A DNA stretch of 33,613 nucleotides from Candidatus Krumholzibacteriia bacterium (GTDB lineage: Bacteria > Krumholzibacteriota > Krumholzibacteriia > Krumholzibacteriales > Krumholzibacteriaceae). This document shows, one piece after another, positions 20,651 to 32,258 of this stretch; the stretch's first letter is position 1; every line of letters begins with the position of its first letter. The notes under the pieces are model-generated. The model was not told the DNA's origin. It searched no databases and worked only from the letters and a program-made list of their open reading frames with translations. The stretch lies in assembly GCA_025453655.1 (NCBI GenBank), contig JALOPX010000042.1:1-33613 (forward strand), written 5' to 3'. Position numbers and translations under genes: made by a program.

Positions 20651-21078
20651 GAAGCATCGCACTGTCGCTGATCCCGCTGATATTCATCTCGTGCCAGGGA
20701 GGCCGGGACGCCGGGCCCGATGCCGCGGACGAGATTCGCGCGGCCATGGAGAATCAGGTGAAAAGCTGGAACAGCGGCGACATGGCCGGTTACATGAGTT
20801 ACTACCTGAAATCTCCTGATCTGACATTTCATTCGGGCGCCAGGCTGCTTCTCGGGTGGGAAACCCTCGATTCGATGTACCGGGAGAAATATTCGGGGCC
20901 GGCAAGGGGCGTCCTGCGGTTCGACGATACCGCGGTTTCGATCCTTTCCAGGGATTCGGCCTACGTCACCGGCCGGTGGCAGGTGCAGCTTCCCGACACC
21001 GTAAGGGAAGGGCGTTTCACCCTTGTTTTCAGAAAATTCGAAGAAGGCTGGAGGATAGTGCACGATCACTCTTCGTGA
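20647..21078 (+). CDS. SnoaL-like/DUF4440-type small lipoprotein
   Basis: GTG start overlapping the tsaC TGA (GTGA); MRSIALSLIPLIFISCQGG lipobox; NQVKSWNSGDMAGYMSYY...WRIVHDHSS is NTF2/SnoaL-like. The ORF track start at 20248 is spurious. Confidence 0.75.
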   Translation: MRSIALSLIPLIFISCQGGRDAGPDAADEIRAAMENQVKSWNSGDMAGYMSYYLKSPDLTFHSGARLLLGWETLDSMYREKYSGPARGVLRFDDTAVSILSRDSAYVTGRWQVQLPDTVREGRFTLVFRKFEEGWRIVHDHSS

Positions 21079-21131
21079 TTCGGCGTATCGGCGCTTCTTC
21101 CGGCGCCGGTAAAAGACGATCGGGAGGAATC

Positions 21132-22253
21132 ATGTCGATATGGTTGAGAAAGGCGGCGGCGCCGCTGGTGGCCGTGATCATCCTGTCCGTCCCCGCGGTG
21201 TCCTCATGCGTCGACAGACGCGAAACTCCGCCGGGCGGCCCCGCGAATATCATCCTTTTCATAGGCGACGGAATGGGGATCGCGCACCTCACCGCGGCGC
21301 GCATCGCGTGCGGGAAGCTCCATATGGAGAGATTCGAGGTCGCCGGGCTCCTGACGACATGGTCCTCGGACGAGCTTGTAACCGATTCGGCCGCCTCCGC
21401 GACGGCGATGGCGACAGGGGTAAAGACCCGGAACGGCTCGATCTCCGTCGACCCCGGCGGCACCCCCTTGCGGACCGTTATTGAATTAGCCGAGGAAAGG
21501 GGGATGCGGACCGGCCTGGTTTCCCTATGTTCGGTCACGCATGCCACGCCCGCGGCCTTCGCGTCGCACGTGGCCGACAGAGACGATAACCTTGAAATTG
21601 CCCGGCAGATGGCGCTCGGAGGGGTCGACGTGCTGATCGGCGGAGGGCTCGAGTACTTCCTCCCGGCGACCGCCGGGGGAAGCGCGAGGACCGACACGTG
21701 CGATCCGATGGCCGCGCTCAGGGAACGCATGGCCGTCGTGACTTCCATCGACGAACTCAGGGAGTCCGGCGGGAAAGGGCCCGTTGCCGCGTTTCTCGCG
21801 CAGAATCATCCCGGGCCCGTGGGAGAAAGGGATTATACGCTCGCCGAACTGACTGACATCGCTGTCACGGCCCTTTCCTCCCGGGGGAACGGTTTCTTCC
21901 TGATGGTCGAAGGTTCCCAGATCGATTGGGAGGCGCATGACAACAACGCGGGAGGGGTGGTTCTGGAGACCGTCGATTTCGACAGGGCGGTGGGAGCCGG
22001 CCTCGATTTCGCCGAAAAAAACGGCAGGACTCTCGTGATAGTCGCGGCCGATCACGAGACGGGAGGGTTCGCCTTGCTGGGGGGCTCTCTTCAGCGCGCC
22101 GAGATATCTTCGTACGATTTCTCCACGGAGGGGCATACCGCTTCCATGGTTCCACTGCTGGCTTTCGGGCCGAATGCGGAGGATTTCGGAGGCATTCACG
22201 ACAACGCGTGGCTCGGCGGGAAACTTATCAGCCTGATCGGTTTCGGGAAATAA
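21132..22253 (+). CDS. Alkaline phosphatase (PhoA superfamily), exported
   Basis: NIILFIGDGMGIAHLTAARI, VTDSAASATAMATGVKTRNG (catalytic Ser), QIDWEAHDNNAGGVVLE, VAADHETGGFALL. RBS gggagg upstream of ATG 21132; the 20856 start is inside the preceding gene. Confidence 0.92.
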   Translation: MSIWLRKAAAPLVAVIILSVPAVSSCVDRRETPPGGPANIILFIGDGMGIAHLTAARIACGKLHMERFEVAGLLTTWSSDELVTDSAASATAMATGVKTRNGSISVDPGGTPLRTVIELAEERGMRTGLVSLCSVTHATPAAFASHVADRDDNLEIARQMALGGVDVLIGGGLEYFLPATAGGSARTDTCDPMAALRERMAVVTSIDELRESGGKGPVAAFLAQNHPGPVGERDYTLAELTDIAVTALSSRGNGFFLMVEGSQIDWEAHDNNAGGVVLETVDFDRAVGAGLDFAEKNGRTLVIVAADHETGGFALLGGSLQRAEISSYDFSTEGHTASMVPLLAFGPNAEDFGGIHDNAWLGGKLISLIGFGK

Positions 22254-22320: not shown

Positions 22321-23022
22321 TCAGTCGTCAGCCTCCGGAGCCGTAAGCCTGAATCCCTTTCCGTGCACGTTGGATATCCTGACTGAACCGTCGGCGCCGA
22401 GATATTTCCTCAGTTTCGATATGAAGACGTCCATGCTTCTCGACGAGAAGAAATTGTCCTCCCCCCATATCTTTTCAAGTGTGACCGGTCGCGAGAGCGT
22501 TTCATTCATGTGAAGGGCGAGAAGGTGCAGCAACTCGGCCTCCTTCCCCGTGAGCCTGCGGGTTTCTTTCCCGATCGCGAGCGTCCGCTCGAGCGGATCG
22601 AACAGATAGGCTCCGATCCTGATGCTCTTCATTTCCGCATCCCGTCCGCCTTTACCGCTTCTTCTGAGAACGGCCCTGATTCTCAGTATCAGTTCCTCCA
22701 TGCTGAAAGGCTTTGTAATATAATCGTCCGCTCCGAGTTTGAAGCCTTCGATCCGGTCTTCCCGAAGGGATCTGGCGGTGAGGAAGATGATCGGAGTCGA
22801 AATGCCGGAGCGCCGTATTTCCCCGGCGAGAGTGAATCCGTCCATCACGGGGAGCATTACGTCGATCAGGCACAGGTCGAAAAACTCCTCTTTCACGGCG
22901 TCGCGGCCCCTGAGGCCGTCCTTTTCCAGACGTACGGAATACCCCTGCTGCCTGAGGGATTCATCCAGAAGCGTCCCCAGATTGGGGTCGTCCTCCACGA
23001 GCAATAATCTGCATCCCGTCAT
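22321..23022 (-). CDS. OmpR/PhoB-family DNA-binding response regulator
   Basis: LLLVEDDPNLGTLLDESL, DLCLIDVMLPVMDGF, KLGADDYITKPFSMEEL, winged-helix LTGKEAELLHLLALH...VHGKGFRL. Confidence 0.95.
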   Translation of the reverse strand: MTGCRLLLVEDDPNLGTLLDESLRQQGYSVRLEKDGLRGRDAVKEEFFDLCLIDVMLPVMDGFTLAGEIRRSGISTPIIFLTARSLREDRIEGFKLGADDYITKPFSMEELILRIRAVLRRSGKGGRDAEMKSIRIGAYLFDPLERTLAIGKETRRLTGKEAELLHLLALHMNETLSRPVTLEKIWGEDNFFSSRSMDVFISKLRKYLGADGSVRISNVHGKGFRLTAPEADD

Positions 23023-24746
23023 ACGCTCTCCGCGCCCCGCGAAGAATGCGGCCGGCGCCCGCCGGTTCCGGCGGGCGGCAATATTATCGAAAATATCGAT
23101 CCGCCGCCCGGGCGACTCTCGACCCTTACGCGGCCGCCGTGCGCCTCCACGATCATCTTCACGTAGGCAAGCCCGAGGCCGAATCCCCTGACGTCGTGCA
23201 CATTCCCGGTGGGGACCCTGTAATACATGTCGAAGATTCTTTCCTGCTGTTCCCGCGTCATGCCGATCCCGTTGTCTTCGACGCTGATCGTCAGTTCACC
23301 GTCCCCTGAAACGATGGAGACGGTCACCCGGGGTTTCCCCTTCGTGTACTTGAACGCGTTGTCGATCAGATTGTTGACCACGTTCGTGAAATGCACTCTG
23401 TCGACTTCTGCCGTGGCGGAATGATCGTCGAAACGCGTCGACAAGGTTCCGCCGGCGGCTTCGAACCTGATGGCATGGTTCCCGGCCGCGTCGCGAACAA
23501 GGCCGCGAATATCCGAGCGCTCCAGGTTCAGCCGGAGTTCGCCCTTTTCAATGGCGGCCATCTGAAGGATCCGCTCTATCTGCAGGCGCATCCTTCCGGC
23601 CTCTTCCATGAGAATCCTGCCGTACCGGCTTCTCTTTTCCCCGGTCATCTCCCCTCCCGCTGCGGAAATCGCCTCTCCCGCTATCATTATCGTGGAGACC
23701 GGCGTCTTGAATTCGTGCGTCATGTTGTTGATGAAATCCACGAGCAGCCCGTGAAATCTTCTCTGGCGCTTCAGGAGAAGGGCGAATGAAACCGAAGAGT
23801 AGATGATAACGGCGAGGAAGATGAAGACGCTGAGAGCCATGAACGCCGCCTGTTTCATCAGGTAGATGTTTTTCCCGGGAAAGGACAGGACCAGATATTC
23901 GTCGACGACCCTCAGGTCGTGGGGGAAGAAACGCGCCCTGCTGTCCGAATCCCTGAGGGATCCGGCCGCGGATGGAGGCTCGGCGAAGAGAAACGAATCG
24001 GCGGATGCCGAATATATCCCGAACTCGAATTCGGTGTTTATCCCCTTTTCCGCCATCGTGGCGGTTATCAGCGAATCGAGGCGGGAGGGTTCGATTATCT
24101 GCATGACGCTCGAGATCCCGCCGCCCGACAGATCGTCCAGCACCTTGTTCAGGATGATCCGCCTGTCGTCGAGCGTGACCTCGAACGACGAGCCTGCCCC
24201 GGCGGAATCACCCTCGCAAAAAACGGCGATCCCCATGGAATCCGGGAATTCGGGGGATCCCCGGCCGCGGCCTTTCCCGCCCTCCATCGCCATCACGTAT
24301 CTGCCTCTCGCGAGAGGGTCTTTCAGCAGCGTGTCCATAAGCGCGCCGCCGGAATCGGACATGATCACGCGGATGACTCCGGATTTCAGACGCCCCGTCT
24401 CGAGGTTCGAACCGCCCGAAGCGCCCCGGCCCCCGGCGCCGCGTTCGGCTACGCCGCCGGCAAAGATCGTGACACGCTCCAGCAGCCCGACGGCCGCCGT
24501 GTCGGATCGCTGAATTCCACCGGGCCCGTTTTCGCCGAGGATCACCCTGCGGATGCTCAGAAGAGCCTCCCTGTTCTCGATTTTCTGAACGACGCTTCCG
24601 AGAACCGAGGTCACGTTCTGGCTGAAGAGGTCCGATTCAAGAGAGAGAGTACGGCGCAGCAAAAGATACTGCACAATCATCAGGCCGATGACGGACAGCG
24701 CGACGATCAGGCTGAAGAAGGCGATATTTCCACGGTCCTTTTTCAT
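23019..24746 (-). CDS. Membrane sensor histidine kinase
   Basis: Two TM segments flanking a roughly 260-aa extracytoplasmic region; MTHEFKTPVSTIMIA H-box; NNLIDNAFKYTKGKP N-box; ISVEDNGIGM; GFGLGLAYVKMIVEAHGG. ATGA overlap with the response regulator gene. Confidence 0.95.
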   Translation of the reverse strand: MKKDRGNIAFFSLIVALSVIGLMIVQYLLLRRTLSLESDLFSQNVTSVLGSVVQKIENREALLSIRRVILGENGPGGIQRSDTAAVGLLERVTIFAGGVAERGAGGRGASGGSNLETGRLKSGVIRVIMSDSGGALMDTLLKDPLARGRYVMAMEGGKGRGRGSPEFPDSMGIAVFCEGDSAGAGSSFEVTLDDRRIILNKVLDDLSGGGISSVMQIIEPSRLDSLITATMAEKGINTEFEFGIYSASADSFLFAEPPSAAGSLRDSDSRARFFPHDLRVVDEYLVLSFPGKNIYLMKQAAFMALSVFIFLAVIIYSSVSFALLLKRQRRFHGLLVDFINNMTHEFKTPVSTIMIAGEAISAAGGEMTGEKRSRYGRILMEEAGRMRLQIERILQMAAIEKGELRLNLERSDIRGLVRDAAGNHAIRFEAAGGTLSTRFDDHSATAEVDRVHFTNVVNNLIDNAFKYTKGKPRVTVSIVSGDGELTISVEDNGIGMTREQQERIFDMYYRVPTGNVHDVRGFGLGLAYVKMIVEAHGGRVRVESRPGGGSIFSIILPPAGTGGRRPHSSRGAESV

Positions 24747-24785
24747 AATCCAATTTTACGTCATAAAAGCGCCCTCGGCACACTA

Positions 24786-24813
24786 TTTAACATAATTTAA
24801 CATTTGATAACAC
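24786..24813. promoter_or_regulatory. Three 10-bp-phased direct repeats in the divergent promoter, candidate response-regulator binding site
   Basis: TTTAACAT (24786), TTTAACAT (24796), GATAACAC (24806), at an exact 10-nt period. Confidence 0.55.
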
Positions 24814-24885
24814 TAATTGATGAAACTGCAAGGAGATATATAGGTTAAACATTCCATGGCACAAAAACCCGGAAGGAGGGTTCCG

Positions 24886-25329
24886 ATGAAAAAATGGATT
24901 CTTGTCACGGTCGCCTCGCTGTCGCTTGCGGCATGCGCCGGCGCTCTTGGCGCAAGGCCGCAGGAGCGGCAGGAACTCAGGCTTGACAGGGAGACGAGCT
25001 TCATACTTTTCGAACTGATGGCGGTCATGAGCGAATCGGACAGCGTTGTCAGCGTCAGCCGGATCATACCGACGCAAAGGAAAAGCGCGGACAGCGGCGA
25101 GGTCGACCTCGAGGAAGGCGATGTCATCCTGATGGCGAACGGCAGGCGAATCGCCGGGGTGAAGGATTTGCACGAGATATACGACAAGCTGCAGGTAGGG
25201 GAGCCGTTCAAGCTCGGCGTCAGGAGGGGGAAGGAGACCTTCATGAGATCGGTGCCAAAGATGGACCCGGAGAAGATGCAGGGCGACGGTATGATCATAA
25301 GGCGGGCGGAGACGGATGATAAGAAATAA
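24886..25329 (+). CDS. PDZ-domain periplasmic lipoprotein
   Basis: ggaaggaggg RBS before ATG 24886; MKKWILVTVASLSLAACAG lipobox; PDZ core GEVDLEEGDVILMANGRRIAGVKDLHEIYDKLQVGEPFKLGVRRGKE. Confidence 0.8.
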   Translation: MKKWILVTVASLSLAACAGALGARPQERQELRLDRETSFILFELMAVMSESDSVVSVSRIIPTQRKSADSGEVDLEEGDVILMANGRRIAGVKDLHEIYDKLQVGEPFKLGVRRGKETFMRSVPKMDPEKMQGDGMIIRRAETDDKK

Positions 25330-26902
25330 TTCGCGGAGCGTCTTCCGGCCGGCCGGCCTTGCCGGGCGGCTTCGACGGGGGATCGCCGCGCCGGCCGCCC
25401 GCGGCCTGATTCTGGTTCCGGCATTCGCGGCGATCCTGGTGGCAGCGCCCGCCTGCCTGGGGCTCCGCGCCCAGACCGGAATCCCGTTCAACCAGCGCGA
25501 CGACACCTATCCCCTCCTCGGCCTGAAAAGGGCGAAGGAAGCCTTCGAGTTCGCGAAGGCGGAGCTCGAAAGGCAGCAGGCGATATATGGGAAGGGATTG
25601 ATTTCCTTTCAGGAGCTCGAAAGGTCGAAAAACGCCTTTGCCGACGCCGAGGTCAATTATCAGCAGTCTCTTCTCGCAGTCCTTTTCGAAAGGCAGTTCG
25701 TATCCGTCGTGAACGCGGTAAAGTACCAGGCCCCGGACGGGAACAAGCACGTCAGGATAACGCTGGCCAATACTTCCGGCGGAGGGGCTGATTTCAGGAA
25801 GCTCATAGAGATGGACGACGAGCTTTTCAGGAAACTGCAGCCGGACGTGATAAACGATGTCTATGTTTCGCTGCTCAACGATGAAAACGCGATAATCAGC
25901 CGCCCGTACGAGGCGAAGGTCGAGCAGCTTCTTTACGGCGATCCGGCGGAGCTCGATTTCGCCCTTCTTCAGGATCTGGACGCGCTGACCGTGGATATCG
26001 TCTATGGCAACGGAAGCCGGCGCTCGCCGAAGATTTTCCTACAGAAGGATTCGTCCGTCAACATGGCCACGATCTACTCGGAGCAGTTTTCCCAGGAGGT
26101 GGAACTGGGCGGATCGGCTACTTACGATCTTCACCTCGAGCTCTTCAGCAGCGCGACGAACACGTTCAAGCTGGAGGTGGTCAACCTGCCGCCGCAAATC
26201 ACGAGGTATTTCAACGATCCGGCGAGCGACGCGAGACTCAGCCAGCTCAGGTTCACCGAGAGGACCAATTCCATGAATGCCGCCCTGAGGATCTACCTCC
26301 CGGACAGGCCGACCGGTGAGGTCGCCGTCGGGGAACCGATTTCCTTTTTTGTCATAGCAGTCCCGCAGGACAGGATGGATTCCATCGAGGGGCTGGATTC
26401 CGGAAGGTGGACGGTCGAGCAGATCGAGGCGCTGAACGTGGGATTCGCTAAGCTGGAGATAGTTCCCATGGGGAACGGCAGGCTCCTGGTCAAGGCGCCC
26501 CAGTTGTACCATTCGATCGGGAAGGGAGGCGTCGTCCAGATGGACATCGACGTGGTCAACGACGGGACGAAGCGGCTGGACAACGTGGAATTCGAGATCG
26601 ACGCGCCCCCCGGATGGCTGAAGGCAACGGATCCGTCGATGATCCGTTCGCTGGATATACGCCAGGAGAGCAGGATCAGGATTACGTTGACCCCCCCGGG
26701 CGACGTCTCATCCGGCCGCTATGAATTCAGGATAAAGACCTCGTCCCTCTCGGGCGACCTTCCGGTCAGGGGCGAAGAGAAGACGGTAACGGTGGAGATC
26801 AAGGCGGGAACAAACGTCTGGGGAACCCTGCTGCTCGTTTTCCTTATCGTCGGGGCCATATCGGCGATCGTCGTCTTCGGCATCAGGCTTTCGAGGCAAT
26901 AG
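25316..26902 (+). CDS. Membrane-anchored NEW3-like (alpha-galactosidase-associated Ig-like) protein with N-terminal coiled-coil hairpin
   Basis: KRAKEAFEFAKAELERQQAIYGKGLISFQELERSKNAFADAEVNYQQSLLAV hairpin; VNDGTKRLDNVEFEIDAPPGWLKATDP...SGRYEFRIKTSS NEW3-like domain; C-terminal TM TNVWGTLLLVFLIVGAISAIVVFGIRLSRQ. Confidence 0.75.
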   Translation: MIRNNSRSVFRPAGLAGRLRRGIAAPAARGLILVPAFAAILVAAPACLGLRAQTGIPFNQRDDTYPLLGLKRAKEAFEFAKAELERQQAIYGKGLISFQELERSKNAFADAEVNYQQSLLAVLFERQFVSVVNAVKYQAPDGNKHVRITLANTSGGGADFRKLIEMDDELFRKLQPDVINDVYVSLLNDENAIISRPYEAKVEQLLYGDPAELDFALLQDLDALTVDIVYGNGSRRSPKIFLQKDSSVNMATIYSEQFSQEVELGGSATYDLHLELFSSATNTFKLEVVNLPPQITRYFNDPASDARLSQLRFTERTNSMNAALRIYLPDRPTGEVAVGEPISFFVIAVPQDRMDSIEGLDSGRWTVEQIEALNVGFAKLEIVPMGNGRLLVKAPQLYHSIGKGGVVQMDIDVVNDGTKRLDNVEFEIDAPPGWLKATDPSMIRSLDIRQESRIRITLTPPGDVSSGRYEFRIKTSSLSGDLPVRGEEKTVTVEIKAGTNVWGTLLLVFLIVGAISAIVVFGIRLSRQ

Positions 26903-26951
26903 GGCCGGCCGGCGAAAAGGATCGAGGCGATACTTTCAGGAAAGGACTGAC

Positions 26952-27710
26952 ATGGAATCGGATAAAAACAACGGGATGTCGCGGACGGCGCCGATGCTCG
27001 AAGCGGTCAACCTCACGAAACGTTACGACGACGGAGTGCTAGCCCTGGACGATCTGAATCTCAGCGTGTTTCCGGGGCGGGCGTACGCGATGCTGGGCGC
27101 CAACGGGGCCGGCAAGACGACAACGATAAATCTGTTCCTCAATTTCATAGACCCGACCGAAGGGGAGGCGCGCGTAGCCGGAGTGGCATCCCACCGGGAT
27201 CCGCTGCTGATAAGGGAAAAGGTCTCGTACGTGTCGGAGAACGTCATGCTTTACATGAATTTCTCCGCCGTACAGAACCTCGATTTCTTCGCGAGGCTGT
27301 CCGGCAGATCGAAGGGATTCAGAAGGGATGAGTGCAGGGACGTTCTAAGAAGGGTCGGGCTGGAGGACGATTGCCACGACAGGAAGCTGAAGACCTTTTC
27401 CAAGGGGATGAGGCAGAAATGCGGAATAGCTATCGCGGTAATTAAGGGGGCCCCGGCCATACTTCTCGACGAGCCGACATCGGGGCTCGACCCCAAGGCC
27501 GCCTTTGAATTCATGAACCTTCTCGATTCGCTTCGGGCCGAGGGCAGGGCGATACTGATGTCCACTCACGACATATTCAGGGCCAGGGAAATCGCCGACG
27601 ACATCGGGATCGTGAAAGAGGGACGGCTCGTGATGCAGCGAAGCAGGGAGGAACTCGAAGGCGAGGATCTCGAGAAGATATACCTCGATTACATGTCGGG
27701 CCTGAGTTGA
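26952..27710 (+). CDS. ABC transporter ATP-binding protein
   Basis: LGANGAGKTTTINLFL Walker A; FSKGMRQKCGIAIAVI signature; AILLDEPTSGLDPKA Walker B; STHDIFRAREIAD. Confidence 0.95.
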   Translation: MESDKNNGMSRTAPMLEAVNLTKRYDDGVLALDDLNLSVFPGRAYAMLGANGAGKTTTINLFLNFIDPTEGEARVAGVASHRDPLLIREKVSYVSENVMLYMNFSAVQNLDFFARLSGRSKGFRRDECRDVLRRVGLEDDCHDRKLKTFSKGMRQKCGIAIAVIKGAPAILLDEPTSGLDPKAAFEFMNLLDSLRAEGRAILMSTHDIFRAREIADDIGIVKEGRLVMQRSREELEGEDLEKIYLDYMSGLS

Positions 27711-27754
27711 AGCCCGTTCGACAGGGACTGCAATTCAAGGACGGAGAACCGGAA

Positions 27755-29173
27755 ATGATCGGAATAGTGGTAAAAAAGGAATTGTTCGAGACCGTTGGAT
27801 CGAAGAAATTTCACATCAGTTTCGCCGTTTGTTCGGTTCTGATCCTGTTGGCTTTCTACGCGGGCATCAGGAACCATCAGAACAACGTCGAGAGGTACGA
27901 GGCTTCGAAGGCGGACAACCTTCGAAAGCTCGAGGGATTGAAGGAATGGCACGAAGTGGAGAATTACAGGATCTTCCTGCCCCCGCGCCCCCTTGAGTCC
28001 CTTGTCGGCGGAGTGTCGAACGATATCGGGCGGACGATCGTCATCCAGAGGGGAAATGAGCTCGAGGCGGAAGGGAGCAGGTTCGGAGACGATCCCGTTT
28101 TCGCCGTCTTCGGCTTCCTCGATCTCGAGTTCATCTTCCAGATCGTTCTGACCCTCTTCGCGATACTCTTCGCGTACGATTCCGTGAACGGCGAGAAGGA
28201 GCGCGGGACACTCAGGCTCACCTTTTCGAACCCGATCCCCAAGAGCTCCTACATCCTCGGCAAATGGACGGGATCGTTCGTCGCGGTCTGTCTTCCGCTG
28301 ATGATACCCCTGCTGACAGGGTGCCTCATGCCGCCGGTTCTTGGGGTCGGCCTTTCCGGCGGAGAATGGCTGCGGCTCGGGCTTGTCATCCTTTCCGGGC
28401 TTCTTCTGTTCGGCGCTTTTCTCGCCATGTCGATCATGGTTTCAGTATTCACCAAAAGATCGTCGAGCTCGTTTCTGGTCCTCCTGGTGATCTGGATCTT
28501 CGTGATCCTCATTATACCGAGAACGGCGGTCGTTCTGGCCGCGAGAGCCGTCGAAACGCCCTCGGTCGACGAGCTTGCAGCTAAAAAAAGCAGCTTCGCG
28601 AGGCAGCTGATGATGGAGGACAGGGAGAAGGTGGACGGATACCGCGGATCGGGAGGCAGTGACATGGAGGCAATGATGCGGGAATTCCAGGAATTCATGA
28701 ACGGGATACAGGAGGAAAGGCGTAAAAAGACGGACGAGTACAACGCGCGCCTGAACGAGGAGAGAAGAAACAAACAGATCGTCCAGGAAAAGACGGCGTT
28801 CGGCCTGGCGAGGATTTCCCCGTCGGCCACCTTCACACTGGCGGCCGCCTCGCTCGCCCGGACGTCGCTCGACCAGAAGGAGCGGTTCCTGGGGGAGGCC
28901 GGCAGATACCAGGAAACCTACGGAAGATTCATGCTGGACAAGACGGGGATAGCGTCGGGATTGAGGGTCATAAGGATCAGCGACGGGGATCGGGAGGAAG
29001 GGGAGGCGAAGGCCTCGATCGATCCGGGCGAGATCCCGGTATTCGACTTTCACGAGGTTTCCACCGCTGAATGCGTGAAAGGTTCCATCCCGGATATGGG
29101 TCTGCTTTTGATATTCAACCTGGCCTTCTTCGCTCTCGCGTATTTCAGGTTCCTCAGGTATGACGTGCGTTGA
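27755..29173 (+). CDS. ABC-2 type transporter permease with long extracytoplasmic insertion
   Basis: MIGIVVKKELFETVGSKKFHISFAVCSVLILL; FAILFAYDSVNGEKERGTLRLTFSNPIPKSSYILGKW. ATG 27755 has an upstream GGAG; the 27707 TTG start is less likely. Confidence 0.88.
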   Translation: MIGIVVKKELFETVGSKKFHISFAVCSVLILLAFYAGIRNHQNNVERYEASKADNLRKLEGLKEWHEVENYRIFLPPRPLESLVGGVSNDIGRTIVIQRGNELEAEGSRFGDDPVFAVFGFLDLEFIFQIVLTLFAILFAYDSVNGEKERGTLRLTFSNPIPKSSYILGKWTGSFVAVCLPLMIPLLTGCLMPPVLGVGLSGGEWLRLGLVILSGLLLFGAFLAMSIMVSVFTKRSSSSFLVLLVIWIFVILIIPRTAVVLAARAVETPSVDELAAKKSSFARQLMMEDREKVDGYRGSGGSDMEAMMREFQEFMNGIQEERRKKTDEYNARLNEERRNKQIVQEKTAFGLARISPSATFTLAAASLARTSLDQKERFLGEAGRYQETYGRFMLDKTGIASGLRVIRISDGDREEGEAKASIDPGEIPVFDFHEVSTAECVKGSIPDMGLLLIFNLAFFALAYFRFLRYDVR

Positions 29174-29198
29174 CCGACAAGGATAGCGGAGGCATAAG

Positions 29199-30668
29199 AT
29201 GTTTGGGACACTGGTGAGAAAAGAACTGAAGAACATTATCGCCGGGCCGAAATTCGCGGCGACATTCCTCGCGTGCTCGGTGCTTATTCTCCTCGGCGTA
29301 TGTGTGGGAATCGTCGATTTCAAGGCCGACATGAAACAATATGAAACGGCCGTTCAACTCGAGCAGGAGCAGCTGCAGGAACAGCATTCGTGGTCTTATC
29401 TCGCAACGAGGGTCTTCCGGAAGCCGGATCCGATGCAGATCTTCGTCGGGGGAGTATCCAGGGACATCGGGCGATTCTCGGTTCTCGAGGAGTCGGAGGC
29501 GATCAGGCTGACGGGCAGCGCGTATTCCAACGATACCGTCTTCGCGGTGTTCAGGTTCATCGATCTTCACTTCATATTCATGGTCGTCATGTCGCTATTC
29601 GCAATTCTCTTCACGTACGATTCGATAAACGGGGAGAGGGAATCCGGGACCCTTAAACTCGTTTTCACGAATCCGGTGAAAAGATTCTCTTACATATTGG
29701 CGAAATTCGCCGGCTCCTGGCTCGGGCTGGCGATACCGCTCGTGATTCCGGTCCTGACGGGATTGCTCCTGGTCCTTCTATTCAGAGTGCCGCTGACGGC
29801 GGATCACTGGGGGCGCTTACTGCTGTTCCTGCTGGTCTCTTTCCTTTATTGCACCTTCTTCCTGGCCTTCGGGCTGATGGTTTCCGCCATGACGCGAAGG
29901 TCGTCGGTCTCTTTCCTCGTCCTTCTCGTTTCCTGGGTCGCGATGATCCTCATCGTGCCTAAAGCGGCGGTGATGGCGGCGGGCAAACTGGCCCCCGTGC
30001 CGTCGGTTGCGCAGATCGAGAGCCGGATCGACCGGTTCTCGTCCTCGGAATGGGAAAAGTATATAAAAGGGATGGAGGAGACATCGATCCGGAGGGAAAG
30101 GGAAATGAGCGGGATGACCGAGGAGGAGCGGAAAGCGCAACGCGAGATCAACGAATGGAACTGGCTTGAAGAGAGCGAAAAGGCGAGAAAAGCCGTTGAG
30201 ACGGAGATCTGGAACAATTCGAAGCGCATGTACGAGGAATTGGGCAACCTGAGGGGGAGGCAGGAGCGGCTCGCATTCGTCCTTTCCAGGGTCTCGCCCG
30301 CATCGGCATACAAACTCGCGTCGATGAACCTGGCCGGGACGGATACAGGGCTCAAGGAAAGGTGCGAAGGACAAATGGCAAGGTACCATGATTCCCTTTA
30401 TGAATTCGCAACGAAAATGGAGAAGGAGTCCCCGGGGGGGAATCCCGGGATCATGGTGACGATCGATTCTGAGAAAGGGCTGACGACCTCGGCCCCGAGG
30501 GATACAAAGACGATCGATACGAGCGGAATGCCCCGATTCGCTGAAGGATATCCCTCGATGTCGCAGGTCATCCGGAACGCGCTGACCGACGCGGTGCTGC
30601 TTGTCATTTACGTGGCCCTGGCCCTGCTCGGAGCCGTGGCGGCATTTTCAGCCTACGATCTTCGCTAG
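29199..30668 (+). CDS. ABC-2 type transporter permease, paralogous to the preceding gene
   Basis: MFGTLVRKELKNIIAGPKFAATFLACSVLILLG; FAILFTYDSINGERESGTLKLVFTNPVKRFSYILAKF. Confidence 0.9.
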   Translation: MFGTLVRKELKNIIAGPKFAATFLACSVLILLGVCVGIVDFKADMKQYETAVQLEQEQLQEQHSWSYLATRVFRKPDPMQIFVGGVSRDIGRFSVLEESEAIRLTGSAYSNDTVFAVFRFIDLHFIFMVVMSLFAILFTYDSINGERESGTLKLVFTNPVKRFSYILAKFAGSWLGLAIPLVIPVLTGLLLVLLFRVPLTADHWGRLLLFLLVSFLYCTFFLAFGLMVSAMTRRSSVSFLVLLVSWVAMILIVPKAAVMAAGKLAPVPSVAQIESRIDRFSSSEWEKYIKGMEETSIRREREMSGMTEEERKAQREINEWNWLEESEKARKAVETEIWNNSKRMYEELGNLRGRQERLAFVLSRVSPASAYKLASMNLAGTDTGLKERCEGQMARYHDSLYEFATKMEKESPGGNPGIMVTIDSEKGLTTSAPRDTKTIDTSGMPRFAEGYPSMSQVIRNALTDAVLLVIYVALALLGAVAAFSAYDLR

Positions 30669-30770: not shown

Positions 30771-32258
30771 ATGAACGCAATGAGGATCGCGGTATTCGTC
30801 ATTTCAATGGCGTCAATTTCCGTAATCGCCGGTTCGCAGCTCCCGGCCAGGGCCGCGGAAGAACCGGTGAAGATCGCGGGGAGCTGGGAAGGATCCATCA
30901 GGATTCAGGGATCCGGGCTCAGGATTGTCTTCAATATTACCTTGAGCGGCGAGGGCGTGCCCGGCGGCACGGTCGACAGCCCCGACCAGGGAGCGAGGGG
31001 CATACCGATCAGGGAGATAACGGTCAGGGGGGACAGCCTGATTATCGACGTGGCGGCCGTGGGAGGGAGATTCGCTGGTAAATACGACCGGCAGGTGGAT
31101 GTCTTCTCGGGATCATGGAATCAGTCGTCCATGGAATTCCCGCTGGAACTGCGTAGAAGCGCCGCCCCGGCAGGACCGGTCCGGCCGCAGACGCCTCAAA
31201 AACCGTATCCCTACAAGACGGAGGATGTATCTTACATCAACGAAGAGGCCGGCATAACCCTCGCCGGCACACTCACGATTCCGGCCGGGGGCGGAGGCTT
31301 TCCAGCCGTGGTCCTTATCACCGGCTCCGGGCAGCAGAACCGGGACGAGGAAGTTTTCGGGCACCGCCCTTTCCTGGTACTCGCGGATCATCTGACGCGC
31401 AGGGGGATTGCCGTGCTGAGAACCGACGACAGGGGGGTGGGGGGATCGGGTGGAAATCCGGCCCTTTCCACGACGGAGGATTTCGCGACGGATGTCCGGG
31501 CTGCGATCGTCTACCTCAAATCGAGACCGGAGATCGATCAGGACGGGATCGGGCTGGTCGGGCACAGCGAGGGGGGCATCATAGCTCCCATGGTGGCGGC
31601 CGGCGGGGCGGATGTAAAATTCGTCGTCCTGCTCGCGGCACCGGGGCTGAACGGCTCAGAAATACTGATATCGCAGACGGGGCCGATTTTAAGGGAGGCG
31701 GGACTCGGCGAAGAACTCATCGGAAAGATCCTGGAGCAGAAAAGGCTCGAGCAGGATGTCTTCATCCGCGAAAAGGACGTCGATAAGGCCGCGGAAATCA
31801 TGATCGAAGAATCGACGGCCTTCATGGACCGGTATTCTCGCGAAGAGCGGCAGGCCCTTGATGGCATCGGTTACACGGAAGGCGCGATCGCGCAGCGGGC
31901 AAGGATCTATTCCACCCCGTGGTTCGGATTCTTCCTCTCGTACGATCCGGCCCCGGCCCTGTCCAGGGTCGAATGCCCTGTTCTGGCGCTTTGGGGGGAG
32001 AAGGATATCCAGGTTCCCCCGGGTGAGAATATCGCAGCGATCGGAAAAGCCCTTTCCGCGGGAAGATGCCGGAGGTACAGGACCCTCGAGCTCAAGGGCC
32101 TGAACCATCTTTTTCAGACCTGTCAAACCGGGTCGATAAACGAATACGGGAGGATCACCGAAACCTTCGCGCCCGAAGCCCTAGATATCATCTCCGGATG
32201 GGTCCTCGAGGCGGCGGCGGATCGGGCTCATGGCGGCGTGACGGAGGGGCGCCCTTAA
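30771..32258 (+). CDS. Exported alpha/beta hydrolase (serine esterase/dienelactone hydrolase-like)
   Basis: Signal peptide MNAMRIAVFVISMASISVIAGSQLPARAA; PAVVLITGSGQQNRDEE; LRTDDRGVGGSGG; nucleophile elbow GHSEGG; WGEKDIQVP; GLNHLFQ. Confidence 0.9.
   Translation: MNAMRIAVFVISMASISVIAGSQLPARAAEEPVKIAGSWEGSIRIQGSGLRIVFNITLSGEGVPGGTVDSPDQGARGIPIREITVRGDSLIIDVAAVGGRFAGKYDRQVDVFSGSWNQSSMEFPLELRRSAAPAGPVRPQTPQKPYPYKTEDVSYINEEAGITLAGTLTIPAGGGGFPAVVLITGSGQQNRDEEVFGHRPFLVLADHLTRRGIAVLRTDDRGVGGSGGNPALSTTEDFATDVRAAIVYLKSRPEIDQDGIGLVGHSEGGIIAPMVAAGGADVKFVVLLAAPGLNGSEILISQTGPILREAGLGEELIGKILEQKRLEQDVFIREKDVDKAAEIMIEESTAFMDRYSREERQALDGIGYTEGAIAQRARIYSTPWFGFFLSYDPAPALSRVECPVLALWGEKDIQVPPGENIAAIGKALSAGRCRRYRTLELKGLNHLFQTCQTGSINEYGRITETFAPEALDIISGWVLEAAADRAHGGVTEGRP

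Follow-up and report, generated by a model that had tools for sequence, protein, structure and literature searches.

A NEW3–ABC-2 transporter module conserved across bacterial phyla: a candidate trans-envelope exporter encoded beside a two-component system

Introduction

What is built by an operon that sets a PDZ protein and a NEW3-domain protein in front of an ABC ATPase and two large permeases, and what switches it on? The question is raised by positions 22321 to 30668 of a 33,613-nucleotide stretch (contig JALOPX010000042.1; the whole stretch is hereafter the window) from a Candidatus Krumholzibacteriia bacterium, where genes for a response regulator and a sensor histidine kinase on the minus strand (22321-24746) lie divergent from five plus-strand genes (24886-30668) encoding, in order, the PDZ protein, the NEW3 protein, the ABC ATPase and the permeases P1 and P2. 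A first-pass annotation had described a two-component system divergent from a tightly packed five-gene operon, and this layout is borne out by the genes read from the sequence and the domains assigned by Pfam scan. All seven genes were confirmed in position and strand, the PDZ and NEW3 genes overlap, and the gaps further downstream in the operon are 49, 44 and 25 bp. The module is a real gene unit conserved across several bacterial phyla. We consider it probable, with some reserve, that it constitutes an ABC-2 exporter that spans the envelope and is induced by a signal, with the NEW3 protein standing in for the canonical adaptor.

Conservation of the module

A scan of a genome collection with the NEW3 protein recovered 34 loci at 50-66% identity, distributed over Krumholzibacteriota, Zixibacteria, KSB1, Calditrichota, Ignavibacteria, Rhodothermales, Balneolaceae, Bacteroidetes and Acidobacteriota, with one locus in a metagenome-assembled genome labelled Pseudohongiella. 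The order NEW3-ATPase-P1-P2 is kept at every one of the 26 loci with enough DNA to assess it, the remaining eight being incomplete or cut by a contig end. Upstream of NEW3, a PDZ gene is found at 21 loci, whereas ten loci lack one, and the regulatory genes are exchanged at some loci (see below); the PDZ protein and the regulator are accessory to the NEW3-ATPase-P1-P2 unit.

Within its own phylum the NEW3 protein is patchily distributed, occurring in 4 of 80 genomes, all from the same family as the window. Among 39 relatives, the NEW3 protein, the permeases and a repeat box in the divergent promoter co-occur in the same four genomes (G000, G008, G010 and G015). In a tree of the NEW3 protein, most Zixibacteria loci and one Ignavibacteria locus are split from the rest, and regulator type clusters on the tree.

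An adaptor-type hairpin in the NEW3 protein

The NEW3 protein (25316..26902, plus strand, 528 aa) comprises a signal peptide, an α-hairpin, immunoglobulin-like (Ig-like) domains, a NEW3 domain (NPCBM_assoc, E 1.1e-10; residues 405-475, 26528..26740) and a C-terminal transmembrane helix. Its AlphaFold model (mean predicted local distance difference test score, pLDDT, 83) places the hairpin helices at residues 66-92 and 98-125, β domains up to about residue 495, and a C-terminal helix at 501-527 (26816..26896) that is hydrophobic in all members of the 34-homologue alignment and fits a membrane anchor. The first-pass annotation had called this a NEW3 membrane protein and overlooked the N-terminal hairpin (residues 66-125, 25511..25690).

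Several comparisons relate this hairpin to the adaptors of tripartite pumps. A first NCBIfam pass scored it weakly as a membrane-fusion protein adaptor. When the hairpin alone was compared, 28 of 29 members matched a CzcB-type adaptor model, and the ten matching NCBIfam families were all adaptors or TolC; against Pfam, the commonest match was OEP, the TolC family (21 of 29). Matches in the PDB were mostly adaptors (EmrA, MexJ, AcrA, MacA and 4l8j); only the splicing factor CLF1 fell outside this group. Alignment with hhalign to single E. coli proteins gave 91% for YbhG, 22% for AcrA and 21% for MacA. The controls, consisting of six non-adaptor E. coli proteins and of reversed sequences, all stayed at 0.4% or less. 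The YbhG alignment is gap-free over 43-44 residues with the RLS motif in register, and R86 of the window protein lines up with the RLS arginines of YbhG (R133), AcrA (R128) and MacA (R131).

Experiments, among them hybrids carrying the HlyD hairpin tip on MacA, have demonstrated that the RLS motif, RxxxLxxxxxxS, is the element by which MacA, AcrA and, in the form RLT, HlyD bind TolC (PMC3391258). In the window protein it reads R86-x3-I90-x6-S97 (25571..25606) and lies at the hairpin tip. Across the family the arginine is present in 34 of 34 sequences, the second position is L, M or I in all 34 (I in the window copy), and the third is S or T in 30. The tip residues neighbouring these positions vary within the family; a protein that docks to an outer-membrane channel would be expected to retain the RLS positions in this way while the rest of the tip varies. 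Two further blocks of the protein, the hairpin base DAEVNYQQSLLAVLFE (25643-25690) and EQFSQEVELG (26081-26110), are nearly invariant across phyla and exceed the tip in conservation.

The hairpin is set in a scaffold that differs from that of known adaptors. Canonical membrane-fusion adaptors such as that of MacAB-TolC share the antiparallel α-hairpin and its RLS motif with the NEW3 protein, but carry an N-terminal anchor and a lipoyl domain split by the hairpin, whereas the NEW3 protein has neither and is predicted to be anchored at its C-terminus. The lipoyl domain is absent: no Pfam match to a lipoyl/HlyD domain was found in the NEW3 protein, and only about 10-15 residues separate the signal peptide from the hairpin, leaving no room for the first half of such a domain. 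A fold search with the whole NEW3 model returned only generic Ig-repeat proteins, for example integrins and ciliary proteins, and was uninformative.

The transporter core

The ABC ATPase (26952..27710, plus strand; ABC_tran 3.9e-26) has a single nucleotide-binding domain, and its nearest solved relatives are the ABCA lipid transporters and NosF. P1 (27755..29173, plus strand; PF12679 2.1e-33) is of NosY type by profile and fold searches, and P2 (29199..30668, plus strand; PF12679 2.3e-29) by profile search. The two are paralogues whose profile match is full-length. The operon combines the PF12679 (ABC2_membrane_2) core and cognate ATPase of a NosY-type ABC-2 exporter. The large extracytoplasmic insertions that had been noted in the permeases are real: in P1, two are mapped on the predicted structure, at about residues 58-120 and 266-436 (helical), and P2 carries a DUF3526-like helical insertion (DUF3526 3.7e-8). 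At Bacteroidota loci a third NosY-type permease gene lies ahead of NEW3 (L041 6486-7922; L030 7235-7705, apparently fragmentary), and at L042 (9060-9665) a single open reading frame joins the start of the ATPase to the second half of P1, which represents either a deletion-fusion or an assembly error.

None of the operon proteins scored above an NCBIfam model cut-off. For the gliding transporter GldA-GldF the scores stay under the equivalog cut-offs (129 of 403 bits for GldA, 28 of 289 bits for GldF). A defence system was dropped because PADLOC hit nothing but the ABC ATPase, and this only through cross-matching models of ATPase type. The closest plan is that of E. coli YbhGFSR, an exporter with a HlyD-type adaptor, an ATPase and two ABC-2 permeases that probably uses TolC (PMC7190983). 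Its gene order (ybhG-ybhF-ybhS-ybhR, adaptor-ATPase-permease-permease) is the same as that of the module. The parts differ: YbhG is a HlyD-type adaptor, whereas the module protein has Ig-like and NEW3 domains in place of the lipoyl scaffold; YbhF has 578 aa against 252 aa for the module ATPase; the module permeases bear large insertions and match YbhS weakly (45% probability over 129 columns), showing no homology beyond the general ABC-2 core; and the YbhGFSR regulator is TetR-type rather than two-component. MacAB-TolC likewise differs in its permease, which is MacB-type rather than ABC-2.

The first-pass annotation had not recognized this combination of genes. No account of the combination was found in an open-licence literature library, which together with the NCBIfam result favours novelty. 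Yet the gene order is known from YbhGFSR, and because of this the combination is better seen as a variant of a known exporter plan. As far as we found, what is new is the architecture of the NEW3 adaptor rather than the plan of adaptor, ABC-2 pair and ATPase.

The two-component system and its phased promoter

The response regulator (22321..23022, minus strand) is of OmpR/PhoB type (Response_reg, PF00072 7e-28; Trans_reg_C, PF00486 3e-17) and is 51-58% identical in most relatives. The kinase (23019..24746, minus strand, 575 aa; HisKA and HATPase_c) has hydrophobic segments at about residues 10-31 and 300-322 that, on reading of the sequence, flank a large extracytoplasmic region, in agreement with the large sensor domain initially proposed.

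Phased repeats had also been noted in the shared promoter, and these are conserved across phyla as TTAAC at 10 bp. In the window the TTAACA repeats read TTAACATAAT TTAACATTTG ATAACA, with the box itself, TTAACATAAT-TTAACATTTG-ATAAC, at 24787..24811 (plus strand); many relatives have a fourth TTAAC copy. In all, 21 distinct loci with this kinase type carry the box, and the regulator itself is visible at most of them. L022 and L036, which have a different response regulator of only 36% identity, lack the box. Of the 39 relatives, G000, G008, G010 and G015 each have a single instance of the three-copy pattern, in every case in the module promoter, and the other 35 have none; the reversed control pattern had no match among the 39. 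Because the box appears once per genome and only in genomes that carry the module, the regulator looks, from these sequences, dedicated to the module promoter. No repeats were found at 11-bp spacing, the actual spacing being 10 bp, and a sigma-70 promoter scan of the region performed no better than shuffles. The TTAACA half-site resembles the WalR/YycF half-site, TGTWAH, read as its reverse complement, but the repeats here are 10 bp apart instead of 11.

The nearest NCBIfam model to the regulator is RprY (E 2.6e-84), from the RprXY system of Bacteroides and Porphyromonas. It is RprY-like but was rejected as an RprY orthologue, since its 282 bits fall under the equivalog cut-off of 370. In P. 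gingivalis, RprY binds the promoters of several chaperones (PMC3646045), in contrast to the one box per genome observed in genomes with the module.

Other loci replace these regulators altogether. At L015, BlaI/BlaR1 stand in place of the kinase-regulator pair, and at L026 an extracytoplasmic function (ECF) sigma region-4 protein, followed by an unclassified membrane protein that is perhaps an anti-sigma factor, takes the place of the kinase. Both replacements are ways of reading extracytoplasmic stress, and the regulator types across loci suggest that the exporter is switched on by an extracytoplasmic signal.

The PDZ protein and neighbouring genes

The PDZ protein of the window (24886..25329, plus strand, 147 aa) has one PDZ domain (PDZ_2 1.3e-6) and a LAAC lipobox, which led to its initial description as a PDZ lipoprotein. 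The PDZ domain stands, and relatives mostly carry two against one in the window copy. The lipobox is confined to the window copy; signal peptides in relatives mostly end in an AQ site resembling that of signal peptidase I, on which ground general lipidation was rejected. The PDZ protein is neither universal nor lipidated in general.

An α/β-hydrolase gene (30771-32258, plus strand) starts about 100 bp past P2. Other hydrolases of α/β or β-lactamase fold adjoin the module in G008 (L058 1148-2572, convergent strand) and at L037 (6481-7323) and L013 (126-1586); the association is too inconsistent for these genes to count as part of the module. On the other side, a gene resembling alkaline phosphatases, with a lipoprotein-like start, converges on the regulator gene (20856-22253, plus strand), as read from the sequence.

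Proposed mechanism and alternatives

We hypothesize that the periplasmic region of the kinase senses an envelope signal, upon which the kinase would phosphorylate the response regulator. The regulator would then bind the 10-bp-phased TTAACA box and turn on the operon, perhaps together with its own gene. The ATPase and P1/P2 would form a NosY-type ABC-2 exporter, beside which the NEW3 protein would sit, held in the inner membrane through its C-terminal helix, with the Ig-like and NEW3 domains serving as a stalk. We infer that the N-terminal hairpin docks through the RLS motif onto an outer-membrane channel of TolC type whose gene lies elsewhere; cargo would then exit the cell directly, with the secreted PDZ protein as an accessory factor. 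TolC-family genes are present in all 39 relatives, with 11 domain matches in the window's own genome. The substrate would most likely be a membrane-active or lipophilic toxic compound. The suggestion of the first-pass annotation that the module senses and exports fits this evidence, and its interpretation is upheld in part: the conserved envelope export module with a two-component system stands, while the Bce likeness and the lipoprotein do not.

Several observations weigh against such an exporter. At none of the loci was a linked gene for an outer-membrane factor observed. Canonical adaptors owe their sealed-ring shape to lipoyl, barrel and membrane-proximal domains that are missing from the NEW3 protein, which makes a closed duct hard to picture, and the hairpin is short, at about four heptads. 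Finally, the analysis indicated no substrate or inducer. An envelope machine resembling NosDFY or Gld stays in play, given the extreme conservation of the hairpin base DAEVNYQQSLLAVLFE and the absence of any linked channel gene. Such a machine would use its ABC-2 core to pass on a lipid, a cofactor or force to the NEW3 and PDZ proteins, which would work on an envelope substrate from the periplasm; the hairpin would touch the insertions of the permeases, or some other partner in the periplasm, and no outer-membrane duct would be involved. In its favour, the types nearest to the permease core and ATPase are NosY/NosF and ABCA, the long periplasmic helices of P1 could receive the hairpin, and the PDZ protein is often present. 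In contrast, NosD itself, a periplasmic β-helix protein, is absent from the operon genes and domains, the hairpin matches adaptors specifically, and the RLS tip residues are kept while adjacent ones vary. The module also differs from NosDFY, with which it shares the permease core and ATPase family, in having a pair of unlike permeases, a NEW3 stalk, a PDZ protein and a two-component system, and no nitrous oxide reductase was linked to it among the genes read. We regard this alternative as rather unlikely.

A detoxification system of the Bce type, in which the kinase would learn of antimicrobial-peptide flux from the transporter itself, had been the comparison drawn at first, and a kinase-regulator pair beside ABC genes, likely responsive to a signal, is indeed common to BceRS-BceAB and the module. 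The two part ways in their permease family, in the type of sensor and in whether the kinase can be dispensed with. The module permeases are of PF12679/NosY type with no FtsX-type permease in the Pfam scan, the kinase bears its own large extracytoplasmic region, and elsewhere the transporter occurs without this kinase, accompanied by BlaI/BlaR1, ECF-sigma or no visible regulator. The missing FtsX-type permease and the sensor region of the kinase led us to reject this quite improbable reading. Still more remote is a chance neighbourhood of genes without shared function, to which one might appeal since each family is common when taken singly; it was rejected as contradicted by the recurrence of the same gene order over many phyla and by the confinement of box, NEW3 protein and permeases to the same four of 39 relatives.

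Significance

The module may represent an undescribed way to build a pump spanning two membranes. We put forward, at even confidence, that the NEW3 protein represents, as its first member, a new architectural class of outer-membrane-channel adaptors, combining an RLS hairpin, an Ig-like/NEW3 stalk and a C-terminal anchor without a lipoyl domain, and that it serves a NosY-type ABC-2 exporter under single-promoter two-component control through a 10-bp-phased box in many phyla. The single dedicated TTAACA-box promoter offers a simple route to the inducing compound and thence to the likely cargo. If docking is true, the blueprint of lipoyl domain, hairpin and N-terminal anchor would be unnecessary for reaching TolC-type channels, and a pump class of largely uncultured phyla would gain a testable mechanism.

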